The notes below the pieces were generated by a model. The model did no database searches, was not told the origin of the DNA, and saw nothing but the letters and a program-made list of their open reading frames with translations. A DNA stretch of 64,000 nt from assembly GCA_017525915.1 (NCBI GenBank), contig JAFXSC010000027.1, positions 1-64,000 of the forward strand. Reading direction: 5' to 3'. This document shows positions 1,232-58,040 of the stretch, piece after piece (positions within the stretch are counted from its first letter, which is position 1; every line of letters starts with the position of its first letter). This DNA comes from Ruminococcus sp. GTDB taxonomy: Bacteria; Bacillota; Clostridia; Oscillospirales; Ruminococcaceae. The position numbers were made by a program, and so were the translations under genes.

Positions 1232-1482
1232 ACTCTTTGTGCCTTCTCTCTCATAACTGAAATCTTGTCCGGAGCAAATTCGCCGACAAGCTCCTCAGCT
1301 GCATTCACGACTTCCTGAACCGTAGCTGCAATAGCTGGCGTAAGCGGCCTTTCAAAGTGCTTGAGCCTGTAGTTGGCGACTTTTGAAAAGTCTGAACCTT
1401 CTGCTGCTGCAACCTCCTCGATCTGGTCAATGACACTGTCGGGAATACGGATAGGTTTGAGTGTGGTCTTTTCTTTTTTCAT
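1213..1482 (-). CDS. MobC-like / ribbon-helix-helix relaxosome accessory protein
   Basis: An 89-residue protein with a strong AGGAGG ribosome binding site 9 nt before the ATG. The N-terminal half (KPIRIPDSVIDQIEEVAAAE) has the strand-then-helix layout of ribbon-helix-helix DNA-binding proteins, followed by a helical C-terminal half. Placement immediately upstream of, and overlapping, a relaxase-like gene fits a MobC-type accessory factor that binds oriT and recruits the relaxase. This is inferred from fold pattern and context; a plain antitoxin-like or repressor RHH protein is the alternative. Confidence 0.55.
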   Translation of the reverse strand: MKKEKTTLKPIRIPDSVIDQIEEVAAAEGSDFSKVANYRLKHFERPLTPAIAATVQEVVNAAEELVGEFAPDKISVMREKAQRVWKHLK

Positions 1483-1660
1483 AGAATTATTCCTCCTGAT
1501 GATAGAATGTATTCTGTAATACCATCGCCGTTTCAGAGCATATCTGTGATATTATCCTGAGCTATTTTGCTTATATATAATATATATTATTATGCAGGAT
1601 ATAGGTAAAGGGCAAATGTATTACAAAATTATTTTACAGTTACTTTTTTGAAACAAATAT

Positions 1661-1689
1661 TTGCTTTTCAGATCCATCCGTGATATAAT
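1661..1689 (+). promoter_or_regulatory. Promoter for the HAD hydrolase gene
   Basis: TTGCTT (1661-1666) and TATAAT (1684-1689) with a 17-bp spacer, 27 nt before the start codon at 1716. Confidence 0.6.
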
Positions 1690-1715
1690 CATAAAAAACG
1701 GATAGAATGGGGATA

Positions 1716-2288
1716 ATGGCTGTGAATGTTTTCGATTTTGACAACACACTGTATCGCGGAGAGAGTTCAGTAGATCTAGCACTTTACATGATAAAGAACA
1801 ACAAGAAGATAATACTGTATCTGCCGAAAATCTTCTACAATCTGGTAAAATACAAACTCTGTATGGTTGAAAAGAGTAAGATGATAACAGCTATAAACGA
1901 CTTTTTACAGAACGTACTCAGAAGCAAAGAGGAACTTCTCGGTGCAATCGACGGATTCTGGGCTAATAACCGGCATAAACTTAATGTCAATATGCTGAAA
2001 CGCATCAATAGCAACGACGTTATAATAACAGCAGGACCGGATTTTCTGCTAAACGGCATTCGTGATATGCTGAATACTGACAATATCCTTTGCAGCTCTG
2101 TTGACACAGAAACAATGAAGGTCAGGTATCTCAACTTCGGAAGCAGCAAGGCGAAATACTACAAGAAAAAATACGGAAGTAAGCGTATTGACTGCTTCTA
2201 TACCGATTCCTACAATGACAAAGCGCTGATGGAATTGTCCGAGCGTGTTTATTTAGTAAAAAATGGCAGGCTCAAACGCGTAAAATGA
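1716..2288 (+). CDS. HAD-superfamily hydrolase (subfamily IB-like phosphatase)
   Basis: The 190-residue product has the haloacid dehalogenase motifs in order: DFDNTL near the N terminus (nucleophile and acid/base Asp), T-A-G in the middle (motif II), a Lys in SSKAKYYKKK (motif III) and DSYNDKAL (motif IV, Mg2+ binding). The helical insert between motifs I and II matches the phosphoserine-phosphatase-like IB group. These enzymes hydrolyse small phosphomonoesters in the cytoplasm; the substrate cannot be read from the sequence. The ATG at 1716 is preferred to 1707 because GGGGA lies just upstream of it. It has its own promoter inside the mobile element and no operon partner is obvious. Confidence 0.8.
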   Translation: MAVNVFDFDNTLYRGESSVDLALYMIKNNKKIILYLPKIFYNLVKYKLCMVEKSKMITAINDFLQNVLRSKEELLGAIDGFWANNRHKLNVNMLKRINSNDVIITAGPDFLLNGIRDMLNTDNILCSSVDTETMKVRYLNFGSSKAKYYKKKYGSKRIDCFYTDSYNDKALMELSERVYLVKNGRLKRVK

Positions 2289-2411
2289 CCTCAAATATGT
2301 GATATTGGCGGCTATATGCCGCCTTTTTCTATTATTTTGATTTTGTAAATATATATTATTTTAGTGGATACCCTTAATGGTATACTATTAAATGAAACAG
2401 GAGGTCAACCA

Positions 2412-2696
2412 ATGCCAGAGCCAAAGCGCTATCTGACCTGCGGCGTAGATGCCGCAATACCACTGGAGTTGCAGCTTTTCCTGTGGGAATGCGTAGACAG
2501 ACTGCCCGAGCCGCGCGACTACTTGCAGATTTTCGACTTAAAGCCAGTCGGGTGTCTACAAAGCATCACGCACTGGAGCGAAGAACCGGAATACCGTATG
2601 GAGTATCTGCTGTCGTCGGATAGTCCAATTTCCGACAAAATCTACGTCATAGACGACGGCACACATTCAACCATGCTGCTTGCCAGCGAATATTAA
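2412..2696 (+). CDS. DUF960 family protein
   Basis: A 94-residue protein with the layout of the DUF960 family, common on Firmicutes phages and mobile elements: RYLTCGVDAAIP, then LFLWECVDRL, DYLQIFDL, EYRMEY and the C-terminal VIDDGTHSTMLLASEY. The function of the family is unknown. The start at 2412 is chosen because AGGAGG lies 7 nt upstream; an in-frame ATG-like start at 2364 has no such site. A hairpin follows the stop codon before the amidoligase gene. Confidence 0.75.
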   Translation: MPEPKRYLTCGVDAAIPLELQLFLWECVDRLPEPRDYLQIFDLKPVGCLQSITHWSEEPEYRMEYLLSSDSPISDKIYVIDDGTHSTMLLASEY

Positions 2697-2702
2697 AACT
2701 AA

Positions 2703-2725
2703 AGCCAGCCCACAAGGGGCTGGCT
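2703..2725 (+). terminator. Intergenic hairpin between the DUF960 and amidoligase genes
   Basis: AGCCAGCCC and GGGCTGGCT form a 9-bp stem with a 5-nt loop. No T-run follows directly, so it may act as a partial terminator or mRNA processing/stability element. Confidence 0.45.
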
Positions 2726-2751
2726 TACGCTATTTATGGAGGTTTTTTACG

Positions 2752-3864
2752 ATGGAAAACAAGAACACAAATGCACTGTATTGCTCCCACTGTGGAGCAC
2801 TCATTGATGAAGGCGATGACTACGGCGAAGTCAATGGTGAGATAGTTTGCAATGACTGTATTGAGCGCTATACTTCAACCTGTGACCGTTGCGGTGAGAC
2901 GATCTGGACAGATGATAGCTACGGCGACGAATATACCACACTTTGCCGTCACTGTTATGAGAACCACTATACCCGCTGCTCCTGCTGTGATGCTTTGGTT
3001 CACGAGGACGACGCCTATCACCTGGACGGATACGACTACTGCTCAGAATGCTATCACGATGAAGTCGATAAGAACCGTTCTATCCATGACTATGGCTATA
3101 AGCCTGAGCCTATATTCTATGGAGACAGTTCCAGATATTTTGGTGTCGAACTCGAAATTGACGGAGCAGGAAAAGACTCGGACAATGCTGACGAGATACT
3201 TGCTATTGCAAACCGTGACGATGAGTACATCTATATCAAGGGAGACGGAAGCCTTGACGACGGTATGGAACTTGTGACACACCCGATGAGTTTGGATTAT
3301 CATAAGCAGTTCTGCTGGGAGGAGATAATGCGAAAGGCGATATCATTGGGATACCGCTCGCATCAAACTTCAACGTGTGGACTTCACATTCACGTCAATC
3401 GTTCCTGCTTCGGAGATAATCGTGACGAGCAGGATATCATCATCAGCCGGATACTTTACTTTGTTGAGCACCATTGGAATGAACTGCTGAAGTTCAGTAG
3501 ACGCTCTGAATACAGCATGAACCGGTGGGCTGCAAGGTACGGCTTTGAAAAGACCGGTAAGGAAATTCTCGACAAGGCAAAAAAGGGAAACAACGGACGC
3601 TATGCCGCTGTAAACCTTATGAACTACAATACCGTGGAATTCCGTCTGTTCAGAGGCACGCTCAAATATAATACGTTTATTGCCGCACTGGAGTTGGTCA
3701 ATGCTATTTGCGACCTCGCAATTGACTTGACAGATGAAGGTATTGCGAAGATGAGCTGGTCGGAGTTCGTAGAAACGCTCACAGAACCAGAACTTATAAC
3801 GTATCTCAAAGAGCGCCGGCTCTACATCAATGAAGAGGCAACTACAGATCAGGAGGAAATGTAA
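2752..3864 (+). CDS. Amidoligase-family protein with N-terminal zinc-ribbon repeats
   Basis: A 370-residue protein. Residues 1-115 hold five Cys-x2-Cys units (YCSHCG, VCNDC, TCDRCG, LCRHC, YCSEC), a LIM/treble-clef-like metal-binding array. From about residue 130 comes the amidoligase core: FGVELEID, ELVTHP, CGLHIHVN (about residue 208) and VEFRLFRGTL (about residue 296). The amidoligase family has a glutamine-synthetase-like fold and is predicted to form ATP-dependent amide bonds between carboxylates and amines, as in peptide tagging or modification. Start chosen by GGAGG 9 nt upstream. It is followed by a small hydrophobic protein and a class II glutamine amidotransferase, a neighbourhood already noted for this family. 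Substrate unknown. Confidence 0.8.
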   Translation: MENKNTNALYCSHCGALIDEGDDYGEVNGEIVCNDCIERYTSTCDRCGETIWTDDSYGDEYTTLCRHCYENHYTRCSCCDALVHEDDAYHLDGYDYCSECYHDEVDKNRSIHDYGYKPEPIFYGDSSRYFGVELEIDGAGKDSDNADEILAIANRDDEYIYIKGDGSLDDGMELVTHPMSLDYHKQFCWEEIMRKAISLGYRSHQTSTCGLHIHVNRSCFGDNRDEQDIIISRILYFVEHHWNELLKFSRRSEYSMNRWAARYGFEKTGKEILDKAKKGNNGRYAAVNLMNYNTVEFRLFRGTLKYNTFIAALELVNAICDLAIDLTDEGIAKMSWSEFVETLTEPELITYLKERRLYINEEATTDQEEM

Positions 3865-4023
3865 ATGGGACTTATATCAAAAATATTTAAAGTTGACCGT
3901 GAAACGGAACAGGAGATCAAGATGATTCTCAAATATGTGAGTGCTATTGTACTTATAGTAGCAGCAGGCAAGGCGGGCGTTGAACTCGGCGCATTGCCGT
4001 TTGACGACGATAAGGAGGTTTAA
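3865..4023 (+). CDS. Small hydrophobic protein (52 aa) in the amidoligase operon
   Basis: The ATG follows the amidoligase stop with no gap (TAAATG) and the gene ends 2 nt before the amidotransferase start, so all three are translationally coupled. The product has a charged N-terminal part, a central hydrophobic stretch (YVSAIVLIVAAGKAGVELG) and an acidic C-terminal tail (FDDDKEV). It could be a single-pass membrane peptide or a peptide substrate of the neighbouring ligase. AAGGAGG near its 3' end serves as ribosome binding site for the next gene. No family recognised. Confidence 0.65.
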   Translation: MGLISKIFKVDRETEQEIKMILKYVSAIVLIVAAGKAGVELGALPFDDDKEV

Positions 4024-4025
4024 CG

Positions 4026-5012
4026 ATGTGTGCATTGTTTGGTTGGCTCGACTACAAGGGAATAGTTCCGTACAGGATATTGAAGAAACTCACGCAAGCT
4101 CTCGGCAATGCCGCTGAGGAGCGCGGCACCGATGCAGCCGGTATCAGCTACATCAAGGACGGTAAGGTAATTATCTTCAAACGTCCCAAACCTGCTCACA
4201 AGATTTATTTCAATCCGCCAGAAGGCATTATCGCTGTCATGGGTCACACCCGTATGACTACTCAGGGCGACGGCAAGCTCAATTACAACAACCACCCGTT
4301 TCCCGGTACTGCCGGGGATACGGATTTCGCATTTGCACATAATGGCGTCCTCTGGAACGACAAGGAACTCCGGAAGGAAAACGTCATCCCCGACAGCTAT
4401 ATCGAGACTGATAGCTACATTGCCGTTCAGCTAATTGAAAAGCAGAACAAGCTGAGCTTCGACAGTCTGAAATATATGGCTGAGACTGTGGAAGGAAACT
4501 TCACGTTCACCGTACTCGACCAGAACAACAGCCTATACATTATAAAGGGAAGCAATCCGATGTGCCTGCTCCACTTCCCTGTTCTAGGATTGTATGTATA
4601 TGCTTCCACTGAGAGTATCATGAAAAGTGCTATCAGCAAGATAGGTCTGCACAAGTTCGCTTCGGATCGTATCACCACTGAGGAGGGAGATATACTCTGC
4701 ATTGACCATAACGGTAATATCACACGCTCGGAGTTTGAGCCTAAGATCTATCGTTCAAAGTACGCTGCGTGGTATGATTTTGATGATCCTTCTTATTGTA
4801 ATAGCAATCTGTATGAGGAGTTATTGCTTGCATACTGCGGCTGCTATGGTGTGGACAGTGCTGATGTTGAGCTTCTGCTCGAATATGGCTACACCTGCGA
4901 CGAAATTGAGGAAATGCTCATGGAGCCTAGCCTGCTCCAAGAAGCTATCAACGATATCAAGTTCGGCGCCGGCGAGAGTTTGTATGAGAGCTGTTGCGGA
5001 GGCGCTTGGTGA
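4026..5012 (+). CDS. Class II glutamine amidotransferase (Ntn hydrolase)
   Basis: A 328-residue protein beginning Met-Cys, so processing would expose Cys as the N-terminal nucleophile typical of GlmS/PurF-type glutaminase domains. Further class II hallmarks are RGTDAAG, GHTRMTTQG (Arg and Thr of the glutamine pocket), AHNGVLWN (oxyanion Asn-Gly) and ETDSY. The domain releases ammonia from glutamine. There is no synthase domain fused to it; the C-terminal 90 residues are acidic and unassigned. Coupling to the amidoligase two genes upstream suggests the ammonia, or a glutaminyl acyl group, is used in that reaction. Start supported by AAGGAGG 6 nt upstream. Confidence 0.85.
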   Translation: MCALFGWLDYKGIVPYRILKKLTQALGNAAEERGTDAAGISYIKDGKVIIFKRPKPAHKIYFNPPEGIIAVMGHTRMTTQGDGKLNYNNHPFPGTAGDTDFAFAHNGVLWNDKELRKENVIPDSYIETDSYIAVQLIEKQNKLSFDSLKYMAETVEGNFTFTVLDQNNSLYIIKGSNPMCLLHFPVLGLYVYASTESIMKSAISKIGLHKFASDRITTEEGDILCIDHNGNITRSEFEPKIYRSKYAAWYDFDDPSYCNSNLYEELLLAYCGCYGVDSADVELLLEYGYTCDEIEEMLMEPSLLQEAINDIKFGAGESLYESCCGGAW

Positions 5013-5030
5013 TGTCTCAAAAAGTATAGG

Positions 5031-5114
5031 ATGAAGTCCGTTGTGGCAAAAAAGCCGATAGAAGCAATGAGAAAACTTAAAAATCTCACTGTCGTGCTAC
5101 TACCGGCTGTATAA
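5031..5114 (+). CDS. Possible 27-aa peptide downstream of the amidotransferase
   Basis: A short frame (starting MKSVVAKKPIEAM) opens 18 nt after the amidotransferase stop and ends before a hairpin at 5135. The ribosome binding site is poor (TATAGG). It could be the last member of the amidoligase operon or chance. Confidence 0.2.
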   Translation: MKSVVAKKPIEAMRKLKNLTVVLLPAV

Positions 5115-5134
5115 CAAACTGTGATGAGAATGGA

Positions 5135-5159
5135 TACAGCCTCCTTCACGGAGGCTGTA
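5135..5159 (+). terminator. Hairpin at the end of the amidoligase operon
   Basis: TACAGCCTCC and GGAGGCTGTA form a 10-bp stem with a short loop. No clear T-run follows, so termination may be partial. Confidence 0.5.
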
Positions 5160-5307
5160 CATGTCTGAGAAAAAATGGAAATAATTCTGAATTTACGTTT
5201 TTCAAAACAATGCCGTAGAAAAAAAGGTGGAAACGGGGGCTAAATGACTGGTTGGGGAGGCAGTTGTTTTTGAAAAACTAAATTTTTAGAAAAAATCAGA
5301 AAAAATA

Positions 5308-6768
5308 TCATTGTTGAGATTTACTTATATCATTCTTTTGCTTGCTGAGTGCATCGTAATATTTATACAGAGCGGATTGGAAACTGTAAAATGTATTCTT
5401 CCGGATACACGAAAAATATTCGCTAATTGATGTCGGGAAAGAAAAAAGATCTGGATATTTAGCGTACATATCCTTTTCAAATTTAATCAGATTATTAAGT
5501 CCTTCAGATTCAGCAGCCTTCTTAATGAAGATCCTATGTTTGCGGAAGCTGGGAGTGGTTAGTTCGGATTTAAAGTTTTTTGCGAGCACTTCAATATTGT
5601 CAGAAATTAGATCGGTTAGCTCAACGACTAAGTTTTGAAAAGTAATATAATATCCTTTAGCCATATCATCTTTATAGAATTCTTCAATAGTCATGTGTAT
5701 ATAACCAAAGTCAAAAAAGATTTTGCTGCACGTTTCGAACAGTAAATAGTGTATTTTGCCGGAAACTCCCTTCGTTCTCTGATTGTAAAAATCAATATCA
5801 GATAGTTTAACCTCTATAATTGATGAAAGGAGCTTCTCTAAATAAGAGCGAGTTTCCTCATAGTATTGCTTTAGTTCATCGCTGACATATTTCTCAACCT
5901 GAGCTTGAGCTGCGCTTCTGATCTTAGCACGGTATGAATTAATTGAATGAGCAAGTCCGCCTGACTCTAAAAGAGGTTGTATGGCATACTTATTTAAATA
6001 GGTAAACCACCTCACTTTTTCAAATGGCACAGTATCTTTGAAGGAAAAAACAGGATAACTCATATATCGTTCACCGGAACAAAGTATATCGAAAATGTCC
6101 TGCTTCTTGTAGACATCTTCATCAGTAGCTGATGCTGTCGGCAGAAGAATTCGGAAATCCCTGATCAATTTCAGCGCTTGAAACACAGGAAGCTCAGAAC
6201 AATATATAGTATCGCTGTATTTTAGTTCTTCATTATGTTCGGTTCCTTCGTCAGCTTGGATCTCAATTTTTGCATAATTACCATCAAGAAGCTCAGAGAA
6301 ATCAGTTACTGTATTCTCTATCGCAAGTTCTTTGATAATCGCTTCCTGGAGTTTATGCAGTTCGAGTGTAATGTCATGATCTACGGCCTCCTTTTTGTTT
6401 TTATGCCCAGTAGCAACTACGATGTTATATAAGAATCTATTGACTATGATATCGTATATTTTCTCAGTCTTCGCTTTACCTAAATAATAGGAAGGGATAA
6501 AGATTCCGCGGTTATTCAAATACTTTTCTGCATTATTAATTGCTGTGACTCTGTCAAAATCTTTGGTATCTTCTCTATGTCTGATTTGTGGGTTAGCTTC
6601 CCAAAATACTATATCAAATAGATCTTTTATATTGCTAAAGGAATTTGGTGTATAGTTACAGTTGCTCACCACACTGTTATCCTTAACTATACAATTCCCA
6701 TCAGCAGACAAAGTATGTGTTCCAAATATCGCTTTCAAAAGGCTTTTGAGTGCTTCCTTGCGTGTCAT
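5308..6768 (-). CDS. Hypothetical protein (486 aa), divergent from the HerA-like ATPase
   Basis: I do not recognise the family. The product is soluble-looking, rich in Lys, Glu, Tyr and Phe, with no signal peptide or membrane segment, and predicted largely helical. No nuclease, Sir2, TIR or toprim motif could be picked out by eye. The ATG at 6768 is preferred because GGAGGG lies about 9 nt upstream; a longer form from 6807 lacks such a site. Its DNA is visibly more A+T-rich than the neighbouring ATPase and amidoligase genes, suggesting separate acquisition. It is transcribed away from the 6955-9909 ATPase gene, sharing a 186-bp intergenic region, so the two may be co-regulated. Confidence 0.75.
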   Translation of the reverse strand: MTRKEALKSLLKAIFGTHTLSADGNCIVKDNSVVSNCNYTPNSFSNIKDLFDIVFWEANPQIRHREDTKDFDRVTAINNAEKYLNNRGIFIPSYYLGKAKTEKIYDIIVNRFLYNIVVATGHKNKKEAVDHDITLELHKLQEAIIKELAIENTVTDFSELLDGNYAKIEIQADEGTEHNEELKYSDTIYCSELPVFQALKLIRDFRILLPTASATDEDVYKKQDIFDILCSGERYMSYPVFSFKDTVPFEKVRWFTYLNKYAIQPLLESGGLAHSINSYRAKIRSAAQAQVEKYVSDELKQYYEETRSYLEKLLSSIIEVKLSDIDFYNQRTKGVSGKIHYLLFETCSKIFFDFGYIHMTIEEFYKDDMAKGYYITFQNLVVELTDLISDNIEVLAKNFKSELTTPSFRKHRIFIKKAAESEGLNNLIKFEKDMYAKYPDLFSFPTSISEYFSCIRKNTFYSFQSALYKYYDALSKQKNDISKSQQ

Positions 6769-6954
6769 ATTAATATTCCCTCCAAAAATGAGCAAATTTG
6801 AGTGCAAAATGAAAATAACAGTTGTTTTCCAAGCTGATTTCCTATCAAAAAAAGACTGAAATTGGTGGATTTGGTAATACTTCTTAAAGCCTTTTGGTGA
6901 TAGAATGTAGTTGTCAACGATAGTTGAACATATTAATACAAGGGAAGTGGTAAA

Positions 6955-9909
6955 ATGTTGAATCCGTTATTCAACAACTCCGGCAGCCATCTGCCGGTAT
7001 TTGGTCCCCAGAGCACCTATCCTCGTGGTTGCGGCGATGCCAACAACTGGTCCGGCAACTACTGCAACAGTACCTTCAGCTGGAACAACGCTTGGTACAC
7101 AACAAGACAGGTGCTCTCCAGGCATTCTGATCCTGAGTTCTCCGCTCGAAAGATCATCCACGATGATTACAACGGAGAGTACAAGGTGCGTGAACGCAAC
7201 GGCAGGGTCGTTGTTGTCGGCAAGTTCCAGATCAAGAAGGTACTCGTGGTGAATCCAAGAAGCGAGAGCGAATTCGCGGCAATGTACTTCGAAATAGAAG
7301 TAGATGCCAAAAAATATCCGGTCGTTCTCTCCTACAAGGAGTATTGCGCGAGGGATTTGCTTTCTCACCTTCCGTTCTTCAAGCGCAATCCGGATTGTCC
7401 CGATTCGTACATCGTTGCTGCAGTGTACCTGGCACTCCAGGATTATCCTGACGCGCAGTTCCTTTCTACCGCCAGCCGCTCCGGTTTTGTGCAGTATGAG
7501 GAAGGAAAAGTGGATTTTGCGTCATCAGCCTCAGTGTTCCCAGGGCTTGAGGAGTACTATCCCCCTGATATAAGGGAGAGGAAGCTCATCAAGACTGACA
7601 GAGCGTTGGCCGATGTCACGGCGGAATACCGCAAATTTCTGGAATCCTACAAGGAGCTCATTCCTCTTGTTAACCTCCGCGTGCACGCCATTATCAGTCG
7701 TTTCTCCTGTGAGGGAGCGCCGGCTGAGGAAGCATACGTTGTCATACCGGCAGGCGAGAAAAGCGCCAAGGTAGCTATCGTGTGTCTGAAGACCAAGAGC
7801 TATGAGTCGACCTCGGTGTGCCCGCTGCTCGTAAGCAAAACAGAGCTTCGCGCGGAGCTTGACAGTACAAATGACGGCGTTGCACTCTTCCGCGATAACT
7901 CGCTCGTTGAGTCGGTTACAAAACGCATACCTAGCTTCGACGTACTTATGCAGGATCTCGTCGGAGCAGACGGCAGGGAAAAACGCGGCTGGCATGTCAT
8001 CTCGATTATCGAGGATAGACCAAGCAACATACCTCCGGGATTTCCGGCACTGTTCCTGGCACTCTCAGAACAGACTGGGGAGGTTGACGTGAAGAAACTG
8101 CAGAGGCTCAGCGGAGAGTTCGATGCAGCGCTGATCCGCTGGTTGGTCAACAATACAGCAAACGCGCTTGCAAAACTGAGAGCAGCTGTTGAAAAAATAG
8201 AGTTTTATCCCGACCATATGTTTGACCCTGAACGCGTAAGAACAATTAAGGGACTCAGCGCAACCGCGTGGTTCCTTGTGCAGCTTGGCTTGTACGGTCT
8301 TGACGATTCCAACGAATTCACTGGTTGGTTGAATCTTCAGCAGGTACAGTCTGACAGCGCGACCGTCGAAGTTGTCAACGACTTCCGCGATGTCGTAAAC
8401 AGGCTTATCGCGTCGGGAACTGTTAAGGTAGTCGGACAGGCAGGTCCGCCCTACTACTCCTCCGGGGAGTTTATCTCTGAGGACAACCTTATAAGCTTTG
8501 AGGTCAGCGTGCTCGACAACCTCATCTTACCGTTGCTGAAAACGACTAAACGCCGCAACGTGGTGCTTTCTGCACTGAGCGAGGCGGGCTTGCTCTATGC
8601 CAACAACAACTACAAACGCATTATAGCGGTCGAGGTCGCTCCTTTCAAGAAGCGCTCGTTGAGCGTGTATTCTGTATCAAAGGACATTCTGGACGAGGAG
8701 GCACTTGACAAGATCGCGGAGAAGGAGCTGGCTGCATTCTTCATGAGGTCGGAGCAGATGCACCACGACTTTATGCCAATCTTGCGTAATTTCTCAGGAG
8801 ACAAAGTAGCAGGCATTCACATCACACCTGACAGCGACACAGTCCCTCACGAGTATACCTGCGGCGCAACACGTTCCGGCAAGTCCCATCGCCTCTGTCA
8901 GCAGGCTGTCTTGAAGGCAGCGACTGGTGAGAAGGTGCTGATACTTGATCATAGTGGCGGATTTTCACTGCGTGAGCTTCGTAAACATCTTCCCGAACGT
9001 ACAATCTCTAAGTATTTTGATTCCTGGGATATCAACGAGAAAGGCTTGCCGGTCGATTTGATGAACCTTGACGGCTGTGAAACACTCCCAGAGGCGAAGA
9101 ACCAGCTTTTAGGCATTTTGTCGGCAGCAATAAGGGTCGGAGGCGACGTCCAGGAAAAAGTGTTAAGACGTCGTTTATCAACTTTCCTCAAGGAGCGTGG
9201 CAGCGAACCTGACGCTGAACTCAGAGATATACTCGATTACCTTGACTGCGGCGATCCTTTCCAGAAGAAGCTTTTTGAGAAGCTCTTCGACGTTTTCGAC
9301 AGTATGGAAGGTATCGCTCCGATTAAAAACGACTGGGAGCAGTTCTTCAAGAACTCTAAACCTATCATTGTAGTATCGGCTTCGGATGATAGCGTAAATA
9401 AGTCAACTCATCTGTTGGATATGTTGCTTGCGAGCCTTTATTCCTACAAACAGCACAGACCTGACGAAAGGCTCACCGTTGTAATCGATGAGGTGGAGGA
9501 TCACTATATCGCTTCAGGCTCTCCAATCGATATTATACTCAGGAAGGGCGGAAAACACGGTCTTACGCTTCTTTTGGCATCACAGGAGTTTTCGGTTGAT
9601 AAGGATAATCTCGGCAAACTCATCGGTAACTGCAAGACAATAGTTTTCTTCAGACCCAAGAATGATAATCTCAAGGAAATTGCAAGGATCACCGGCTTTG
9701 ATACTTCAACTCTTGCTGGCCTTGAGCAGGGCGAATGCATTGCAGTAGGTAATTTTGAAAGTACATTTGACGGAAAGAGCAAGCACATTGCCCTTATCGG
9801 CAGGACATACGTCACCGCGGAGGATGATGAAGATAGCAGCGACAACGAGGAAGATGACAGCGACAACGATGATTCCGTCCCGGACAACTACGTAGGCACA
9901 ACGCGCTGA
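6955..9909 (+). CDS. HerA/FtsK-superfamily P-loop ATPase (DNA translocase-like)
   Basis: A 984-residue protein. The C-terminal third holds a RecA-type motor: Walker A GATRSGKSH (about residue 636), Walker B LTVVIDEVEDH (about residue 840) and a sensor-like HGLTLLLASQEFS. Wording and spacing resemble HerA/TraG/VirD4-like ATPases that pump DNA or act as coupling proteins. The first 600 residues have no domain I recognise; the N terminus is rich in Asn, Gly, Trp and Cys. The last 35 residues are a strongly acidic tail (EDDEDSSDNEEDDSDNDD). AAGGGAAGTGG precedes the ATG. On an element with a relaxase it could be the coupling ATPase; alternatively it works with the divergent 486-residue protein in a defence-like pair. 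Confidence 0.75.
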   Translation: MLNPLFNNSGSHLPVFGPQSTYPRGCGDANNWSGNYCNSTFSWNNAWYTTRQVLSRHSDPEFSARKIIHDDYNGEYKVRERNGRVVVVGKFQIKKVLVVNPRSESEFAAMYFEIEVDAKKYPVVLSYKEYCARDLLSHLPFFKRNPDCPDSYIVAAVYLALQDYPDAQFLSTASRSGFVQYEEGKVDFASSASVFPGLEEYYPPDIRERKLIKTDRALADVTAEYRKFLESYKELIPLVNLRVHAIISRFSCEGAPAEEAYVVIPAGEKSAKVAIVCLKTKSYESTSVCPLLVSKTELRAELDSTNDGVALFRDNSLVESVTKRIPSFDVLMQDLVGADGREKRGWHVISIIEDRPSNIPPGFPALFLALSEQTGEVDVKKLQRLSGEFDAALIRWLVNNTANALAKLRAAVEKIEFYPDHMFDPERVRTIKGLSATAWFLVQLGLYGLDDSNEFTGWLNLQQVQSDSATVEVVNDFRDVVNRLIASGTVKVVGQAGPPYYSSGEFISEDNLISFEVSVLDNLILPLLKTTKRRNVVLSALSEAGLLYANNNYKRIIAVEVAPFKKRSLSVYSVSKDILDEEALDKIAEKELAAFFMRSEQMHHDFMPILRNFSGDKVAGIHITPDSDTVPHEYTCGATRSGKSHRLCQQAVLKAATGEKVLILDHSGGFSLRELRKHLPERTISKYFDSWDINEKGLPVDLMNLDGCETLPEAKNQLLGILSAAIRVGGDVQEKVLRRRLSTFLKERGSEPDAELRDILDYLDCGDPFQKKLFEKLFDVFDSMEGIAPIKNDWEQFFKNSKPIIVVSASDDSVNKSTHLLDMLLASLYSYKQHRPDERLTVVIDEVEDHYIASGSPIDIILRKGGKHGLTLLLASQEFSVDKDNLGKLIGNCKTIVFFRPKNDNLKEIARITGFDTSTLAGLEQGECIAVGNFESTFDGKSKHIALIGRTYVTAEDDEDSSDNEEDDSDNDDSVPDNYVGTTR

Positions 9910-9912
9910 CGC

Positions 9913-9937
9913 GGTGGCTCCATTTTTGGGAGCCACC
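9913..9937 (+). terminator. Hairpin after the HerA-like ATPase gene
   Basis: GGTGGCTCC and GGAGCCACC form a 9-bp stem with an ATTTTTG loop directly after the stop codon. It lacks a perfect T-run. Confidence 0.5.
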
Positions 9938-10027
9938 CCTATATATTATACCTCGTAATGCGATAAAGGTCAAGGAGTAATACAATTCTCCCAGACCGCA
10001 TACACTGCAAAGGAAGGAGTGAGCGCA

Positions 10028-10147
10028 GTGAAGGAAACAATACGTTCGAGAAGCACGTTCAGGTCTTCGGACAAGGAACAGCTCAGAAAGGCTGTGACTG
10101 AGAAGATCGGGAAGCTTGTGAATAATAAACTGAAGAAGGCTGGCTGA
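10028..10147 (+). CDS. Small basic protein (39 aa) preceding the recombinase
   Basis: A GTG start 10 nt after AAGGAAGG opens a 39-residue frame very rich in Lys and Arg (starting VKETIRSRSTFRSSDKEQLR, ending NNKLKKAG). It lies 34 nt before the recombinase start. A short basic protein here could be an excision or DNA-architecture factor, but no family is recognised. Confidence 0.5.
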   Translation: MKETIRSRSTFRSSDKEQLRKAVTEKIGKLVNNKLKKAG

Positions 10148-10181
10148 GGATAGCCGATCAAACTGAGAGGAGGTGCGGTCA

Positions 10182-11753
10182 ATGCCGAAAGTAGCGATAT
10201 ACTGCCGATTGTCAATCGAGGACAGAGACAAGTCCGGGAGCGATGACAGTGCAAGCATACAGAACCAGAAGTCCATGCTACGCGACTACTGCCGTGAGCG
10301 AGACTGGGAGATATACGATATATACGTCGATGACGGTTACAGCGGCATTGACCGCAGCCGTCCCGAGTTTAACCGTATGCTGCGCGACTGCGAGGCTGGT
10401 CATATTGACATAGTTCTGTGTAAGGATCAGTCACGCTTCTCTCGCGATACCGTGGTGATCGAGCAGTTCATCAACGACAGATTCCTCGAATGGGGCGTTC
10501 GCTTCATAGGAGTTGCCGATAATGCCGACTCCGAGAGCGAAAGCTACTCAACAATGCGGTTGTTTACAAGTGCATACAACGAGATGTACGTCAAGGATAT
10601 TTCCTCGAAGATACGGCGTACTTTAGCCTACAAGCGCGAGCAGGGGCAGTTCATCGGCTCGTTCGCTCCATATGGCTATCAGATTGACCCGGAGGACAAG
10701 CATCATCTCATTATTGACAGTGAAACTGCGCCGGTCATCCGCATGATATTTGAAATGTATGTCAGCGGCGAGGGCTACCGGAAAATAGTTCAGAAGCTCA
10801 ACCAGGAGGGGATAGTCAGTCCTACGGAATACAAGCGGCAGAAGGGTTCCAAATATGCCAACAGCTATGCTGAATCAGGCAATGCGAAGGGACTATGGAC
10901 GCAGTCAACCATTGCGCGGATACTTGCAAACGAGATGTACACCGGTACGCTTGTGCAGGGCAAGTCTCACCACATCAGCTACAAGAACAAGAAGCGGAAG
11001 AAAGTAGAGCAGGAGGACTGGGTGCGTATTCCCGGCGCTCACGAAGCTGTCATAGATGCGGAAACATGGGAGCGTTCGCAGGAACGTCTGAACAGTCACG
11101 CAAGGGTAGGGAAGCGCTCTCAGGAGCTTTCTCCTTTGTCAGGTAAGGTAAGATGTGCCTGCTGCGGACGGCCGATGAAGCGCAACGTATACTACAACAA
11201 GGCTAAGACTATTAAGTACTACGGCCTGCAATGTGCAACCTATAAGACCGGTGCAATGAACTGTCCCAACACTAAAACTATCAGCGGACTTGTTCTCGAG
11301 AAACATATACTTGATGAGCTGAATTCAATCGTTGAGCAGTTTTGCCAGACTGATGAAATAGTACTTTCGGACATCCATTCCGAGCAGATAAAGGAGCTTG
11401 AACGAAAACTCAACCTGCTGGAGGAGCGCCACAGAACCGCTAAGGAGCGCCTTGTGAAGATGTATAAGGACAAGCTGGACGGAATTGTATCGGATGAGGA
11501 CTATGCTCTGTTCCGGCAAAGCCTCAGTGCCGAGGAGGAAAGGCTATCGGAACAGATAGCAGAAGTCAATCAGCAGATAGCTGACTGCCGTAAACGTCAG
11601 GAAAACACTGATGGTCAGAAGGCTCTCATTGAGAGATACACTCACTTTGATACGCTTGACCGCACTGTTGCCGATGAGTTCATTGAGCTTGTCGAAGTCG
11701 GTATGCCTGACGAGAATGGTCAGCGCGAAATACATATACACTGGAAGATATAG
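10182..11753 (+). CDS. Large serine recombinase (TnpX-like site-specific integrase)
   Basis: A 523-residue protein. Residues 1-150 are a resolvase domain: VAIYCRLSIEDRD with the catalytic Ser in RLS, the Arg-containing DGYSGIDRSRPEFN, and CKDQSRFSRD. Then come a recombinase domain (AYKREQGQFIGSFAPYGY, SGEGYRKIVQKLN), a zinc ribbon (CACCGRPM to YGLQCATYKTGAMNCPN) and a coiled-coil segment (about residues 400-480). This is the architecture of large serine integrases of Tn4451-type elements, which insert and excise DNA without host factors. Start taken at 10182 (MPKVAIYCRLS) with GAGAGGAGG 9 nt upstream. It lies at the right end of the element and is followed by a terminator. Confidence 0.93.
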   Translation: MPKVAIYCRLSIEDRDKSGSDDSASIQNQKSMLRDYCRERDWEIYDIYVDDGYSGIDRSRPEFNRMLRDCEAGHIDIVLCKDQSRFSRDTVVIEQFINDRFLEWGVRFIGVADNADSESESYSTMRLFTSAYNEMYVKDISSKIRRTLAYKREQGQFIGSFAPYGYQIDPEDKHHLIIDSETAPVIRMIFEMYVSGEGYRKIVQKLNQEGIVSPTEYKRQKGSKYANSYAESGNAKGLWTQSTIARILANEMYTGTLVQGKSHHISYKNKKRKKVEQEDWVRIPGAHEAVIDAETWERSQERLNSHARVGKRSQELSPLSGKVRCACCGRPMKRNVYYNKAKTIKYYGLQCATYKTGAMNCPNTKTISGLVLEKHILDELNSIVEQFCQTDEIVLSDIHSEQIKELERKLNLLEERHRTAKERLVKMYKDKLDGIVSDEDYALFRQSLSAEEERLSEQIAEVNQQIADCRKRQENTDGQKALIERYTHFDTLDRTVADEFIELVEVGMPDENGQREIHIHWKI

Positions 11754-11932: not shown

Positions 11933-12478
11933 GCGTCAGGCATTACTGCAGAGATGAAGGCGCTTGCATCAGCTACACTCGACTACGGCACAGCAGCACA
12001 AATCAAATTCAATCACAATGCAGCAGGTCTCACAGTAAGAAATACTGTTTCAAACCTCGCACTTTCAAAGCTCAAAAACTACAAGACTTCAACAACTCCC
12101 AAGGCGGACAGAGTTGACGGTGTAAGTATGTCTTTGAACGTTGAATTCGGCGCTGACAATACACTGTTTGTGACTTATTCACTTCCTTCCGGCAAGCCCG
12201 AAAAAGACTATACTTTCACTATTGATGGTAATACAGTTACACCTGTAAGTCTTGGCAGCGGATATTACAAACTTCAACTGACAAACATTTCTCCAAACAA
12301 GCTTGGCACTTCACATATCTTCAACTGCACAGATGGCACAAAGAACTGTTCTGTTGAGACAAGCGTTCTCGGCTATGCAAATCTGCTCGCAAGTCAGACA
12401 AGTGCCGAAGAATCACTCAAAAATCTTGCAAAGGCAATGTACCTGTACAGTCAGGCAGCAATAGCCTATGCAGGTTGA
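11933..12478 (+). pseudogene. 3' fragment of a BspA-like surface protein gene
   Basis: The frame encodes about 180 residues that match the last 180 residues of the 33642-36833 product throughout: ALASATLDYGTAAQI versus ALASATLDYGAAAQI, ADNTLFVTYSLPSGK versus EDNTLFITYTLPSGK, and AKAMYLYSQAAIAY versus AKAMYLYYYAAADY. The similarity starts near 11933 with no signal peptide or ribosome binding site, and the frame hits a stop at 11879. The N-terminal bulk is therefore missing, most simply because the mobile element inserted in the gene. An internal ATG at 11954 could start translation but has no ribosome binding site. It keeps its own terminator. Confidence 0.75.
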
Positions 12479-12925: not shown

Positions 12926-12988
12926 ATAATCATTCAAGTTCGGATCCTGAATACAACAGTTTTACGACTGACTAAAGGAGGTTTTTTG

Positions 12989-14011
12989 ATGAAAAGAAAC
13001 TATTGGAAGAAAGCAGCAGCTGCTCTGCTTGCAGTGACACTTGTAGCAAGCTCAGTTCCTGCAAACACAACTGTGAAGGAGTACTTCAGCGGAGCAGTGC
13101 TTACCGCAAATGCCGAAGCGGTGACTGCTTCAGGCTACTGCGGTGACCCGACTTTCAACGAGAGTGAAAATGTAGCATGGTCGCTGGAAGACGGCGTTCT
13201 CACCATCAGCGGTACGGGTGCAATGGAGAATTTTAATGACGTTGCTCCGTGGTATAATTACAGTTCGGATATTACTGAAGTCGTAATTGAAAACGGCGTG
13301 ACAAGAATAGGAAGTGCTGCGTTCTATGGTTGCAGCATGTTGATTTCTGTTACCATTCCGGACAGCGTGACACGCATCGGTAATTCCGCATTCTCTGAAT
13401 GCAGCAATCTGACTTCTGTCACAATTCCGGATACTGTGGCAAGCATCGGAGATCACGCATTTTACTATTGCATCAGACTGAAAAGCGTCACTATCCCGGA
13501 AAGCGTAAAAGGCATAGGCTGCAATGCTTTTGAGTTGTGCGAAAGCCTGTATTCTGTCGTTATGGAAAGTGAGGCCGTGTCTCCAATTGACAATAATGCG
13601 TTTAAAAGTACAAACGAAAGCTTAAAGATCTACGTACCCGAGACAGCGGTAGGATCCTACAAGAATGAAGAAAGCTGGAGTGTCTACAATGAGAATATCA
13701 TCGGTTATTCCGATATACAGCTCCCCGACGGAAAATACAAGCAGACCGCGGAGATGAACGGCATATTCTACACCAGATTTGTCTTTGTCGTACCGGAAAA
13801 GCAGCTTGAAGGAATGAACAAGGCCGTCTTCATCGTACACTATGATGGTACGGACTATACCTATGAGACCAGCACGTATTACGAGGGCGTGATCTCTAAC
13901 TGGATCACCTACACACCCGCTTCTGAGAGCGACCGTGTAATGTTCGTTGTGACAGTTTCCAGCAGTTCCGACATAAGAGAAGAACTGAAATGCAAACTTG
14001 ATTTTGAATAA
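12989..14011 (+). CDS. Secreted BspA-like leucine-rich repeat protein with conserved C-terminal domain
   Basis: A 340-residue exported protein. The signal peptide (KKAAAALLAVTLVASSVPA) is followed by an N-terminal domain ending SLEDGVLTISGTGAM and then by four BspA-type repeats such as SVTIPDSVTRIGNSAFSECS. The last 95 residues (from about 245) are a distinct domain: YKQTAEMNG, TRFVFVVPEKQLEGM, STYYEGV and VMFVVTV. The same domain closes the 55941-58013 product (YRQTAEVDG, TRFVFVKPISELEGK, HTYYTGM, VLFAVTI). Both genes are followed within 20 nt by a gene for a nearly identical small peptide. BspA repeats usually mediate adhesion. Start at 12989 follows AAAGGAGG by 7 nt. The role of the C-terminal domain is unknown. 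Confidence 0.85.
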   Translation: MKRNYWKKAAAALLAVTLVASSVPANTTVKEYFSGAVLTANAEAVTASGYCGDPTFNESENVAWSLEDGVLTISGTGAMENFNDVAPWYNYSSDITEVVIENGVTRIGSAAFYGCSMLISVTIPDSVTRIGNSAFSECSNLTSVTIPDTVASIGDHAFYYCIRLKSVTIPESVKGIGCNAFELCESLYSVVMESEAVSPIDNNAFKSTNESLKIYVPETAVGSYKNEESWSVYNENIIGYSDIQLPDGKYKQTAEMNGIFYTRFVFVVPEKQLEGMNKAVFIVHYDGTDYTYETSTYYEGVISNWITYTPASESDRVMFVVTVSSSSDIREELKCKLDFE

Positions 14012-14025
14012 CGGAGGACACACCT

Positions 14026-14163
14026 ATGAAGGAAAAGTACACAGCTCCCGAAGTGGAGATCATAGCATTTGACACTGAGGATGTTATCACAACTTCAAAC
14101 TTCTCTAACGGCGGAAAAAGTGATGATTTCGGCGGCTACGGCGATATCCATATCGGCGGCTGA
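14026..14163 (+). CDS. Conserved small peptide (45 aa), MKEKYTAPEVEII family
   Basis: The ATG lies 7 nt after CGGAGG and 14 nt after the leucine-rich protein stop. The peptide has a conserved front half (MKEKYTAPEVEIIAFDTEDV, then ITTS) and a Gly/Asp-rich tail (SNGGKSDDFGGYGDIHIGG). The 55788-55922 gene encodes a 44-residue relative with identical MKEKYT, EII, EDVITTS and SNGG blocks but a different tail, likewise directly after a gene with the same C-terminal domain. A conserved leader-like half plus a variable Gly-rich half looks like a peptide precursor, but no modification enzyme or peptidase transporter is adjacent. It has no signal peptide. Function unknown. Confidence 0.75.
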   Translation: MKEKYTAPEVEIIAFDTEDVITTSNFSNGGKSDDFGGYGDIHIGG

Positions 14164-14218
14164 CTATTAAGGCAAATGGCGGCGGAGTTTCACTGCTGCC
14201 CCTTTCATGGAGGATATT

Positions 14219-14647
14219 ATGAAGTATATGGTAACAGCGGCAGCACTGTTCGGTTGCCTGCTCCTGTGCGGCTGTAAGAGCGGTAAGGAGAGTCCCTCGG
14301 CTCCTGACAGCACAACGGCAGTCACAACAACAGTCAGCGAGGAAAGCTCCGTTACAACGGAGGGGGAGAAAGCTGCGGCTGCCGACAAAACGACGGACTC
14401 AAAGGAAACGACAACAAAGGAATCAGTCGAAACGACCACGCAGAGCGTAACGACTAACAGTTCTGACGCTGCCGATATCGAGTTTGGCGGAGAGACTACT
14501 GAAACGCGGACACTTCCGCCGGAGACGGAAACGGTCACGACAGCAGCCGCGGAGACCACTGCTGCACAGCAGGATACCGGCGTTGATAACGGAGAGGTCA
14601 TGACCGATGACGGTCTTAACTGGTCGCCGCTTGTTCCGGTTGACTGA
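14219..14647 (+). CDS. Thr-rich lipoprotein
   Basis: A 142-residue protein. The lipobox LLCGC at residues 15-19 follows a short hydrophobic signal peptide, so it should be lipidated and membrane-tethered. The remainder is low-complexity, very rich in Thr, Glu, Ser and Ala (for example ETTTKESVETTTQ), and ends LNWSPLVPVD. No catalytic domain is visible. The ATG at 14219 follows GGAGG by 7 nt; an earlier ATG at 14207 overlaps that site. It is the third gene of the operon with the leucine-rich protein and the small peptide, and may be a flexible surface spacer. Confidence 0.75.
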   Translation: MKYMVTAAALFGCLLLCGCKSGKESPSAPDSTTAVTTTVSEESSVTTEGEKAAAADKTTDSKETTTKESVETTTQSVTTNSSDAADIEFGGETTETRTLPPETETVTTAAAETTAAQQDTGVDNGEVMTDDGLNWSPLVPVD

Positions 14648-55787: not shown

Positions 55788-55922
55788 CTAACTGAAATCA
55801 ATATTCGGAGTTCCGGGAACGTCTCCGGCATCTCCGCCGTTACTCAGTGTTGACGTCGTGATGACATCCTCTGCATCGAACCGGATGATCTCCAGCTCCG
55901 GAATAGTGTATTTTTCTTTCAT
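55788..55922 (-). CDS. Conserved small peptide (44 aa), MKEKYTIPELEII family
   Basis: ATG at 55922 follows CGGAGG. The sequence starts MKEKYTIPELEIIRFDAEDV, continues ITTSTLSNGG and ends DVPGTPNIDFS. It is a clear relative of the 14026-14163 peptide (about 60 percent identical over the first 30 residues), with a different C-terminal tail. As there, it directly follows a gene whose product ends in the YRQTAE...TRFVFV domain (18 nt gap). It lacks a signal peptide. Function unknown; a precursor-peptide or partner-peptide role is possible. Confidence 0.75.
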   Translation of the reverse strand: MKEKYTIPELEIIRFDAEDVITTSTLSNGGDAGDVPGTPNIDFS

Positions 55923-55940: not shown

Positions 55941-58013
55941 TCAAGTCAGGTTTATCCGGCAGCTAAGCATCCATTCGTCTTCCTCAGGAACGCCTGCTAT
56001 TGTGACGGCAAACAACACACAGTCCTTGGCGAGCATATACTGCTGACCGTTGAAGCGCATACCGGTGTAATAGGTGTGTGTAACAGAGGTTATCTCACGG
56101 CCGTTGTATCTGGCAGTGAATGTCGCTCTGGTTTTGCCTTCGAGTTCGGAAATTGGCTTGACAAATACGAAACGTGTAAGGCGCTTGCCGTCCACTTCTG
56201 CCGTCTGCCTGTAAGTGCCGGGACAGAGTGCAGGGGGGGCAATCGTGTAGCTGCTGTCATCGTTCTGTACGATCGACTGGGCGCCCGAACCGAGGTATTT
56301 ACCCCATTCTGCATTCCATGTGGAGAAGGTGCCATTGTTGAACGTGATGCTGCATCCGTCCTCTGCGGTGATAGTGCAGCCGCCTGCCAGTTCAAAGTAA
56401 CCGCCGTTCACTATGACATTGCCGCCTGCCGGAATAACTGTGTTCTCCGGCGCATAGCTCTGATCTACGTATGCGTGGAAACCGCTGGTGTTGGTGACCT
56501 TACCGGTGCCCTCTGCGGAGGTATCACTGAATGACAGAGTACCTGCACCACTGGATATATCACCGGGGATAAATCCGCTCTCAACAAGGAAAGACCTCTC
56601 CGCCATGTTCAGTGTGTGACCGTTCAGGTCAATGGTAAGATTGCCGTAGACAGTGCGCTCACCCTCGGTCATGGAAAGGTCGATGTCTTTCGTCAGCCTG
56701 AGTATCGTGTCATATCCGGTGACCTCATTGCGGATATATGCCTCATTAAGCATACTTATGACTTCATAGAATTCATGCGGCTGGGAGACCGGTATCACAT
56801 CGTTCTCGATGTAGCTGATCTTGATGTCGCCGAAGCAGGAGGCAGTGAGTATGTACTCTTCCTTCTCCTCATCGTATGAAGGCAGGCTGAACTCGCCATC
56901 TTCCGTGGTCAGAACGAATGGCTTTTCGGAAGTGTAGGTGATGTAGTTCTGACGTTCTCCGTATTCCCCGACGCCGTAAGGATTGATGTTGCTGGGATCG
57001 AGTTCCTCATCGGTGTAGGTGTATTCAGCTTTAACGCCGCCGTCCTCCGGAAGGTCGAGGGTCAGCGTCAGCGCAAAGCTGTACGGGTTTTCAAGTGTAC
57101 CGTCACCGCTCGTGACGAAGAAACCGAGAGGCGTGGTGGAATAGGGCAGGGAAGTGAACCACGTCAGCGGGTAGTAGTAAGTGCCGTCGGAAAAACCGAA
57201 GCTGTATTGCCAGTCGCCGAAATCATAGGCGACCTTATTCACCTTGACGTAAGCATCTTCGGTCATTTCAAGGACTGTGCCGTGCTGATCGGTGTACCGG
57301 AAGACTTCGCCCTGCTGTAGTTTCACCGTATCACCGAGGAAGATGAAGGAGCCTACAGAGAGAGTTTTGGCATTCTCGATATCCGGTCCCTCCATCAGTT
57401 CTTCTTGTGTAATGGTGAGCTGCTCTTGACCTTTGATAACAGGCGAACTTTCAAGCTCGATCTCCTCAAACACCGGAATTTCTTGTTCAGTAGTGCTTGT
57501 GACCGTAGTCGAAGAACTTGTAGATGTAGTTGTAGTGCTTGTAGTCGTAGAGCTTGTAGTTTGATTATCTGGAACTGATTGACCTGAAACTATATTACTC
57601 GTACTTGAACTTGCATCTTTAAGAACTGTATTTCCATCGCTATTGGTCTGTGTGGTGTCATCTTCTAATAAATCGGATACTGTTCCGTGATCTCCGGACT
57701 CCATTGTTGCGCTGCCAGTCCTGCCGATCAGTTCGATTTGACCTCTGGTGTTGTTTTTCACATTGGCGCTTGCACCGTCCTTCTTGGTAGTTACAGTGCT
57801 TCCCTCAGCGCCTTTTTTGAATGCTACATTAACTGTGGCGTATACGGCAACATCTGTCGGTACAGACGATTGCAACGCACCTTTATTTGCCGTCATTACT
57901 TAAGGAACAGCAACCTCTGACTTCCCGGTCGCTGTTGCACCGAACGAAACTCCGCTCATCGCAAGCGATGCCGCCAGAATACAAGCCGCCGCTTTTCTCA
58001 TTAGCTGATTCAT
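55941..58013 (-). pseudogene. Exported surface protein gene interrupted by an in-frame TAA after the signal peptide
   Basis: From an ATG at 58013 (7 nt after AGGAGG) the frame encodes a signal peptide (KAAACILAASLAMSGVSFGA) and TATGKSEVAVP, then TAA at 57902-57900; the same frame continues with GTA ATG ACG and runs 651 codons to 55941. The large part has a Ser/Thr-rich linker (TTSSTTTSTTTTSTSSS), beta-rich domains, a right-handed-helix-like stretch (NLTIDLNGHTLNMAERSFLV) and the C-terminal domain YRQTAEVDG ... TRFVFVKPISELEGK shared with the 12989-14011 product. If translated from the ATG at 57896 the product would not be exported, and no ribosome binding site precedes that ATG. A recent nonsense mutation is the simplest reading. 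Confidence 0.75.
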
Positions 58014-58040
58014 TTTCATTCCTCCTGTTCTGATTCAGGT

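Follow-up and report, generated by a model that had tools for sequence, protein, structure and literature searches.

Small peptides encoded behind exported-protein genes of Ruminococcus, best read as LPP-type RiPP precursors

Two short peptides are encoded in the window, the whole stretch of 64,000 nucleotides from Ruminococcus sp. that we analysed. Gene content and sequence give good evidence that they are best read as RiPP precursors of the LPP type (linear polyphosphorylated peptides), a family from Bacillota described by Popov et al. in May 2026 (PMC13381572). The assignment follows from the set of genes around a co-occurring kinase, which corresponds to the LPP core. Evidence that the peptides form functional pairs with the proteins encoded directly upstream is moderate. 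LPP-type precursors, together with a proposed docking of their tails to the C-terminal domain of the neighbouring protein, are probably the best joint explanation of the data. According to the main text of Popov et al., the LPP core gene set was already known (PMC13381572). New here, as far as the literature searched shows, are the dispersal of precursors behind genes for surface proteins, an agreement between tail and class of the partner domain, though not in every genome tested, and a lipoprotein as third partner.

The relevant features of the window are the following.

12986..14011, plus strand: partner 1, an exported BspA-type LRR protein of 341 aa with a C-terminal domain here called TYY (PF13306, 4.2e-33; hydrophobic N-terminus)
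13721..14008, plus strand: TYY C-terminal domain of partner 1 (no family over cut-off; no PDB sequence match)
14026..14163, plus strand: putative precursor peptide 1, 45 aa (ORF call, position confirmed)
14026..14088, plus strand: predicted leader of peptide 1, residues 1-21 (cleavage point by analogy with LppA as described in PMC13381572)
14089..14160, plus strand: TTS and tail of peptide 1, the predicted core
14095-14097, plus strand: Ser24 of peptide 1, the proposed phosphate acceptor
14207..14647, plus strand: Thr-rich lipoprotein ending in SPLVPVD, third member of the cassette (same cluster in L034-L038)
55788..55922, minus strand: putative precursor peptide 2, 44 aa (ORF call, position confirmed)
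55941..57896, minus strand: partner 2, a large protein with the TYY domain at its end (no Pfam match)
55953..56222, minus strand: TYY C-terminal domain of partner 2 (43% identical to the copy in partner 1, E 6.5e-15)
57900..58019, minus strand: signal-peptide ORF belonging to partner 2 (in frame with the main ORF and closed by a TAA just ahead of it)

The ORF calls confirmed that each peptide lies directly behind a large gene, with gaps of 14 nt (peptide 1) and 18 nt (peptide 2), and the comparison of the two partners confirmed a shared C-terminal domain of about 95 residues, both as the first-pass annotation had claimed. The sequence GGAGG at 14013-14017 precedes the ATG of peptide 1. Aligned over 41 residues, the two peptides show 66% identity (E 6.8e-12). 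Neither they nor the TYY domain reached the cut-off of any family in Pfam or NCBIfam, and none was found in PHROGs at E 0.1. Residues 260-292 of partner 1 gave a match to Peptidase_M60_C below the cut-off (0.03), and partner 2 had nothing in Pfam up to E 1. Since a single in-frame TAA splits the signal peptide from the main ORF, partner 2 as it stands may not be exported; this copy may be inactive, or a base of the TAA may be wrong.

The two cassettes had been taken as a duplication, but the host genome (3.09 Mb in 67 contigs) holds 12 peptide copies. A single query found these 12 places, and a profile returned the same 12 and one more at E 7.9. For nine of the 12, a large ORF (341-2088 aa) ends no more than 70 nt upstream. 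The frame directly ahead of the L014 peptide still has a match to the C-terminal domain of another class, AYA, described below (1.5e-5), but is interrupted; the upstream frame of L013, AYA-like by eye, is interrupted as well, and the copy at L010 has no partner. In a class-wide sample, up to 21 peptide matches, some of them partial, occurred in a single genome.

The peptides consist of a constant leader and a variable tail. The earlier description as conserved peptides with different tails holds for the leaders, which are common to both; the two window tails, in turn, are related in kind, both belonging to the TYY class, which has a tail motif of its own (below). For family-wide analyses we used 91 loci, namely the 12 host copies and 79 loci from a contig scan. 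The scan gave 252 confirmed stretches, of which the 80 best supplied the 79 loci, and 48 of the 79 carry the name Ruminococcus. They were picked with the pattern F[DE]x[ES]DVI[TA]TS, which in part imposes the near-invariance of these same residues. In all 35 peptides compared (sets of 15 and 20), a Ser follows the D-V/I motif at four to six residues, in 31 of them at the distance found in the window.

These ORFs behave as genes, as judged from Shine-Dalgarno-like sites and from the pN/pS values of the TYY class. Such a site was found at 75 of the 81 testable peptide starts of the 91-locus set, compared with 2/91 at a control position. In the TYY class, pN/pS was 0.20 for the leader, 0.56 for the tail and 0.43 for the domain, and the leader stayed within 0.11-0.20 across three groups. 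The tail is thus under moderate selection. The very short length of the ORFs might suggest chance frames, an explanation refuted by 12 copies in one genome, the leader values and the frequency of Shine-Dalgarno sites.

The distribution of the peptides was compared with that of an HprK-like kinase. Among 60 genomes including the host (thresholds E 0.01 for the peptide and E 1e-20 for the kinase), 27 contained the peptide, 24 the kinase and 23 both. The kinase was thus present in 23/27 peptide genomes and in 1/33 peptide-free ones (Fisher 1.6e-11); G005, G016, G023 and G032 had only the peptide and G048 only the kinase. A sample of 293 genomes of the class (peptide threshold E 0.001) gave the kinase in 36 of 37 peptide genomes, the exception being G278, and in 40 of 256 peptide-free genomes (76/293 overall; 1.1e-23). 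At genus level, all 27 peptide genera had the kinase, compared with 53/181 overall (9e-18). Peptide genomes of this sample cover 17 families. At the threshold used, 40 of the 76 kinase-bearing genomes had no peptide; some of the kinase matches, partial ones within longer frames, may represent different HprK relatives. The L158 region has the kinase, but no peptide was found in it.

In Clostridia the kinase usually belongs to one set of genes, which encode a PqqD-type RRE, the HprK-like kinase, an S26/SipW-like peptidase, an MsbA-like exporter and an NTP_transf_5 protein. Locus L079 shows a single run behind an exported protein: precursor, lipoprotein, RRE, NTP_transf_5, HprK-like kinase, S26 and ABC. 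All five maturation genes are also together in L155, and further families of the order and class have them grouped likewise. When the neighbours of the 91 peptides were clustered, a recurrent downstream set appeared at a subset of loci, with the kinase cluster at 14, NTP_transf_5 at 11, the PqqD-like cluster at 10 and S26 at 6; an ABC cluster was present at 17, some of these being other ABC proteins. For the L079 proteins, the RRE (PqqD, PF05402, 1.5e-14) and the NTP_transf_5 protein (PF14907, 4.6e-41) are over the Pfam cut-off. The exporter matches MsbA (7.9e-65) below the NCBIfam cut-off. Also below their cut-offs are the S26 protein, best matched by NCBIfam sigpep_I_arch (archaeal signal peptidase I, 2e-7) and without a match in Pfam, and the kinase, with NCBIfam HPr kinase at 0.0011 and Pfam Hpr_kinase_C at 0.023. 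The kinase had no match among PDB sequences (E 0.01). The SynChlorMet system differs in that the model of its HprK-like protein ScmC, although the best NCBIfam match of the L079 kinase, scores far below cut-off (3.5e-7), and HPr-rel-A in that its PqqD-like NCBIfam model TIGR04353 matches L079 at 0.0018, again far below cut-off.

Host copies of these genes are dispersed. The HprK-like kinase has one match genome-wide, 71% identical to the L079 copy, and its gene lies together with the S26 and ABC genes, without a precursor, at C42:368150-371085 (= L118:9651-12586). Neither the host kinase nor the host S26 protein matched Pfam at E 0.01. The host S26 copy keeps the Ser, His and Asp motifs, while 6 of 15 copies miss one motif by pattern; the host exporter copy has ABC_membrane and ABC_tran. 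On C41, peptide L014 is followed by PqqD-like and NTP_transf_5 genes, the latter assigned by similarity clustering. A second host PqqD-like gene lies on C37, behind a Thr-rich lipoprotein ending in IELPEIPL. Peptide L017 is followed by genes for a sugar transferase, a UDP-glucose dehydrogenase-type protein and a nucleotidyl transferase. Genome-wide counts in the host cover the kinase (one) and the RRE (two), and further copies of the other maturation genes are possible.

The LPP core consists of lppA, K, B, S, D and N. In the parts of the paper considered here, LppK polyphosphorylates core Ser3, and the SipW-like peptidase LppS cleaves after T-1, assisted by the RRE LppB, which is described as contacting the leader through D70 and N33; deletion of lppN gave no visible change (PMC13381572). 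All five maturation genes have counterparts here: RRE, HprK-like kinase, SipW-like S26 peptidase, MsbA-like exporter and NTP transferase. Further likenesses are the Y..P leader, the variable tail, a Ser near the leader end and a capsule-gene neighbourhood. Of the published leader motif, YxxPxVLxHQxIxFETxxS (PMC13381572), only YxxP and the late Ser are present, and the rest differs. Ser24 lies 19 residues past the Tyr and Ser3 of LppA 18 past its own (PMC13381572), a difference of one residue that leaves the exact cut site uncertain. In an alignment of 26 RRE rows, with the LppB places set by residue number, Asn occupies the N33 place in 24 and Asp the D70 place in 25; the L054 RRE has Asp and Asn at residue numbers 70 and 33. 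The published survey of LPPs covers Bacilli, its experiments used Paenibacillus alginolyticus, and clusters had one to three candidate precursors, as far as the main text tells (PMC13381572). In contrast, the present system belongs to Clostridia and includes a tagged lipoprotein. A single genome has 12 precursors, most of which lie apart from the maturation genes and most of which follow the gene of an exported protein. The first-pass annotation knew of no described system of this form, a view that the agreement with the LPP gene set corrects. Of the roles it offered for the peptide (precursor, chaperone, regulator or secretion partner), that of a precursor is best supported, by the gene set, the kinase co-occurrence, and the constant leader with its variable tail.

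Phosphorylated lasso peptides such as paeninodin and pseudomycoidin, to which LPPs are related, share a PqqD-type B1, an HprK-like kinase, a nucleotidyltransferase-type protein and a Y/W..P leader (PMC9266682, PMC7533575, both seen in part). In pseudomycoidin, the nucleotidyltransferase-type PsmN is reported to be needed, perhaps indirectly, for hexoses on the phosphorylated Ser (PMC9266682), and among rumen lasso leaders, those from R. flavefaciens and R. albus have Tyr and Pro spaced as in our peptides, in the part of PMC7533575 considered. A further point for true lasso precursors with a cyclase encoded elsewhere is the relation of the RRE to lasso B1. Among PDB chains, the profile of the RRE picks out the lasso B1 proteins TfuB1 and TbiB1, and 9x90, named a lasso PqqD chaperone. 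Unlike the phosphorylated lasso systems, the host has no match to the B2 protease domain PF13471 at E 0.001, which exceeded its cut-off in 3/60 genomes, and no lasso core pattern. A constant Gly is lacking, since the residue after TTS may be N, T, G, D, L or others, and no ring Asp/Glu is fixed at 7-9. On these grounds the lasso reading was rejected; we consider it very improbable.

The pairing with exported proteins is general, as had been proposed, with swapped N-terminal modules. For 74 of the 91 peptides, an ORF of 150 aa or more on the same strand ends within 120 nt, compared with 198 of 724 control genes from the same loci. Of the 74 partners, 61 look exported, as do 266/724 control genes, by a crude hydropathy rule rather than a signal-peptide predictor (a hydrophobic segment at the N-terminus and no more than one elsewhere). 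The remaining 17 peptides have no such ORF upstream, some of them near contig ends. In other orders of the class, 19 of 20 peptides compared lie no more than 130 nt behind an ORF of 300 aa or more on their strand, the exception being L160; these regions were picked by hand among search hits, partly for their proximity to the kinase. In L123 (G043), two large tandem proteins with identical last 24 residues precede a single peptide (795-8477), and one tail may serve two partners there.

Tight spacing to the upstream gene and the missing hydrophobic signal sequence would also suit a small unmodified cytosolic peptide that helps to fold or regulates the exported protein encoded before it. The co-occurrence with the kinase, the genes for RRE, kinase, peptidase and exporter that cluster with the peptide at some loci, and the combination of constant leader and variable tail argue against such a role, and we regard it as improbable.

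The 74 partners were sorted into classes by their C-terminal 110 residues. The largest is AYA with 32 members, followed by TYY with 12, to which both window tails belong, and smaller classes. Neither the TYY nor the AYA domain matched PDB sequences (E 1). A search of the host genome for the TYY domain gave, besides the two copies of the window, a single additional match at E 0.1. A peptide specific for the TYY domain is excluded by the finding that peptides follow other C-terminal domains too. Only 2 of the 12 host peptides lie behind it and seven of the other ten behind large proteins with other C-terminal domains, and among the 60 genomes the domain was found in three and the peptide in 27. 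The family therefore occurs mostly without the TYY domain, which the first-pass annotation had itself named as evidence against its proposal. In the opposite direction, all four TYY domains in the 60 genomes, two of them those of the window, are followed by a peptide. The 12 TYY loci of the 91-locus set had been selected by their peptide, so that the step from domain to peptide is carried by these four hits. For AYA-domain proteins of the host, five of eight are followed by a peptide and three are not. The window itself contains an AYA-type C-terminus fragment at 11954-12478 (plus strand), 0.5 kb before partner 1, and, at 33642-36833 (plus strand), an exported repeat protein of 1063 aa that ends in an AYA domain, both without a peptide; the latter indicates that a partner class occurs without one.

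The class of the C-terminal domain goes with the type of tail in the Ruminococcus-centred set, which supports the idea that domain and peptide belong together. The test used 44 of the 74 paired loci, with dereplication at 60% and a minimum of four members per class. Tail similarity was 17.1 within and 13.1 between classes, a difference reached in 0 of 10,000 permutations, and in 11 of 10,000 when TYY was left out. The leaders of the same 44 peptides, taken as a control, showed no class effect (3537/10,000). The tail motif [GSAPN][DN]I.[IF] was present in 7/7 dereplicated TYY-class tails, compared with 1/37 others. Single genomes gave mixed results. In G073, from another order, the tail correlated with the partner C-terminus (Mantel 0.76, 13/5000), as did the leaders (0.42, 26/5000). 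No tail-domain correlation was seen for the 10 peptides of G241 (0.04, 1958/5000), and for the five of G072/G102 it was not significant (783/5000). These genome-wise tests kept only peptides with an upstream ORF and a match to a regular expression, and consequently give no pairing rate.

An LPP-type precursor could also have an independent function, for example as bacteriocin, signal or capsule decoration, with co-expression as its only tie to the partner and with linkage as the cause of the tail-domain correlation. Tail and domain are adjacent in the DNA and may travel as one cassette, so joint inheritance alone could yield the correlation, and G241 shows none. The published LPP work notes capsule loci nearby (main text of PMC13381572), and the host kinase operon likewise adjoins CpsB/CapC, Wzz/AAA_31 and Polysacc_synt_2 genes. 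However, the coupling to large exported proteins is seen again in other orders, the peptide is kept behind every TYY domain found in the 60 genomes, and the tail motif persists in partners whose TYY domains are down to 35-60% identical to that of partner 1. We regard independent function as quite possible, while leaning against it.

A Thr-rich lipoprotein adjoins at least 24 of the 91 peptides, 23 found by a scan and the one of the window (14207-14647) added by hand; the scan had also missed the known cases in L035, L038 and L066, which were left out. Nineteen of the 24 end in P-phi-phi-P-phi, compared with 17 of 915 C-termini of the same loci, a control that includes the lipoproteins themselves, and with 1 of 52 lipobox ORFs further off. 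Many of the 24 are homologous to one another. In L052, L066 and L090 a near-identical tail is found on peptide and lipoprotein, and the L054 lipoprotein ends with a complete second precursor sequence. A general rule that the peptide tail equals the lipoprotein tail of its own locus was rejected: the agreement is striking in L052, L090 and L073 and weak overall (341/10,000; 22 loci).

Returning to LPP-type precursors that dock to their neighbours, we propose the following pathway. By homology to LPP biosynthesis, the PqqD-like RRE would bind the Y..P leader, the HprK-like kinase would phosphorylate the conserved Ser, probably Ser24, the S26/SipW-like peptidase would take off the leader and the MsbA-like transporter would export the core; the NTP_transf_5 protein may decorate the phosphate. 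The precursors themselves are dispersed, most of them behind the genes for large modular exported proteins, and maturation genes can be encoded elsewhere. From the way in which tail type follows domain class in the Ruminococcus-centred set we infer, without a homologue as guide, that the exported modified tail may be a ligand of the C-terminal domain of the partner. In its simplest form the peptide would be a docking tag, by which the surface protein is kept attached to whatever structure bears the phosphate. The Thr-rich lipoprotein, by a similar conjecture without a homologue, would bear a comparable tag on a lipid anchor.

This suggests a possible way of holding modular surface proteins at the cell surface. 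In its full form, each modular protein would have its own phosphopeptide, with the tail bound in the C-terminal domain and the phosphate end on a cell-surface polymer; lipoprotein tails would be the membrane-anchored version, and one maturation set would serve a dozen unlinked pairs. We put forward such a RiPP-built attachment only tentatively and think it rather unlikely as a whole; LPP cores that act alone and are merely co-transcribed with surface proteins are at least as likely as anchoring. Popov et al. left the role and final structure of LPPs open, in the text considered (PMC13381572). Since most precursors here can be assigned a protein partner, with tail type tied to domain type, a possible clue to that role is at hand, and the question turns into one of binding and localisation tests. 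In addition, the LPP gene set is extended to at least 17 families in the class sample, including bacteria recorded from rumen and faeces.

We did not find scattered precursors behind surface-protein genes, domain-matched tails or a lipoprotein as third partner in the open-access literature, outside of which are most subscription papers and bioRxiv. In that literature a single paper, PMC13381572, was found to use the name LPP. The main text of PMC13381572, supplements aside, contains neither 'Clostridi' nor 'surface', and no such system is among the rumen RiPPs listed in the part of PMC13289728 considered.

Some loci show variant arrangements. In L103, at about 10001-10084, a signal peptide is fused straight to a peptide tail and most of the leader is gone, by internal deletion or as a real fusion. 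L133 (G048) has PqqD, HprK-like, ABC and S26 genes (5902-11523) with a different small ORF (6171-6473) that contains a Y..P stretch and perhaps represents a related RiPP type. A methyltransferase-like protein was seen by eye within the operon of two genomes (L054, 3122-3884 nt past the peptide start; L134:9923-10594). Finally, the window contains at 37334-39632 (plus strand) an S26 signal peptidase gene (PF10502, 5e-5), followed by the gene for an exported protein that presumably resembles the TasA/camelysin type.
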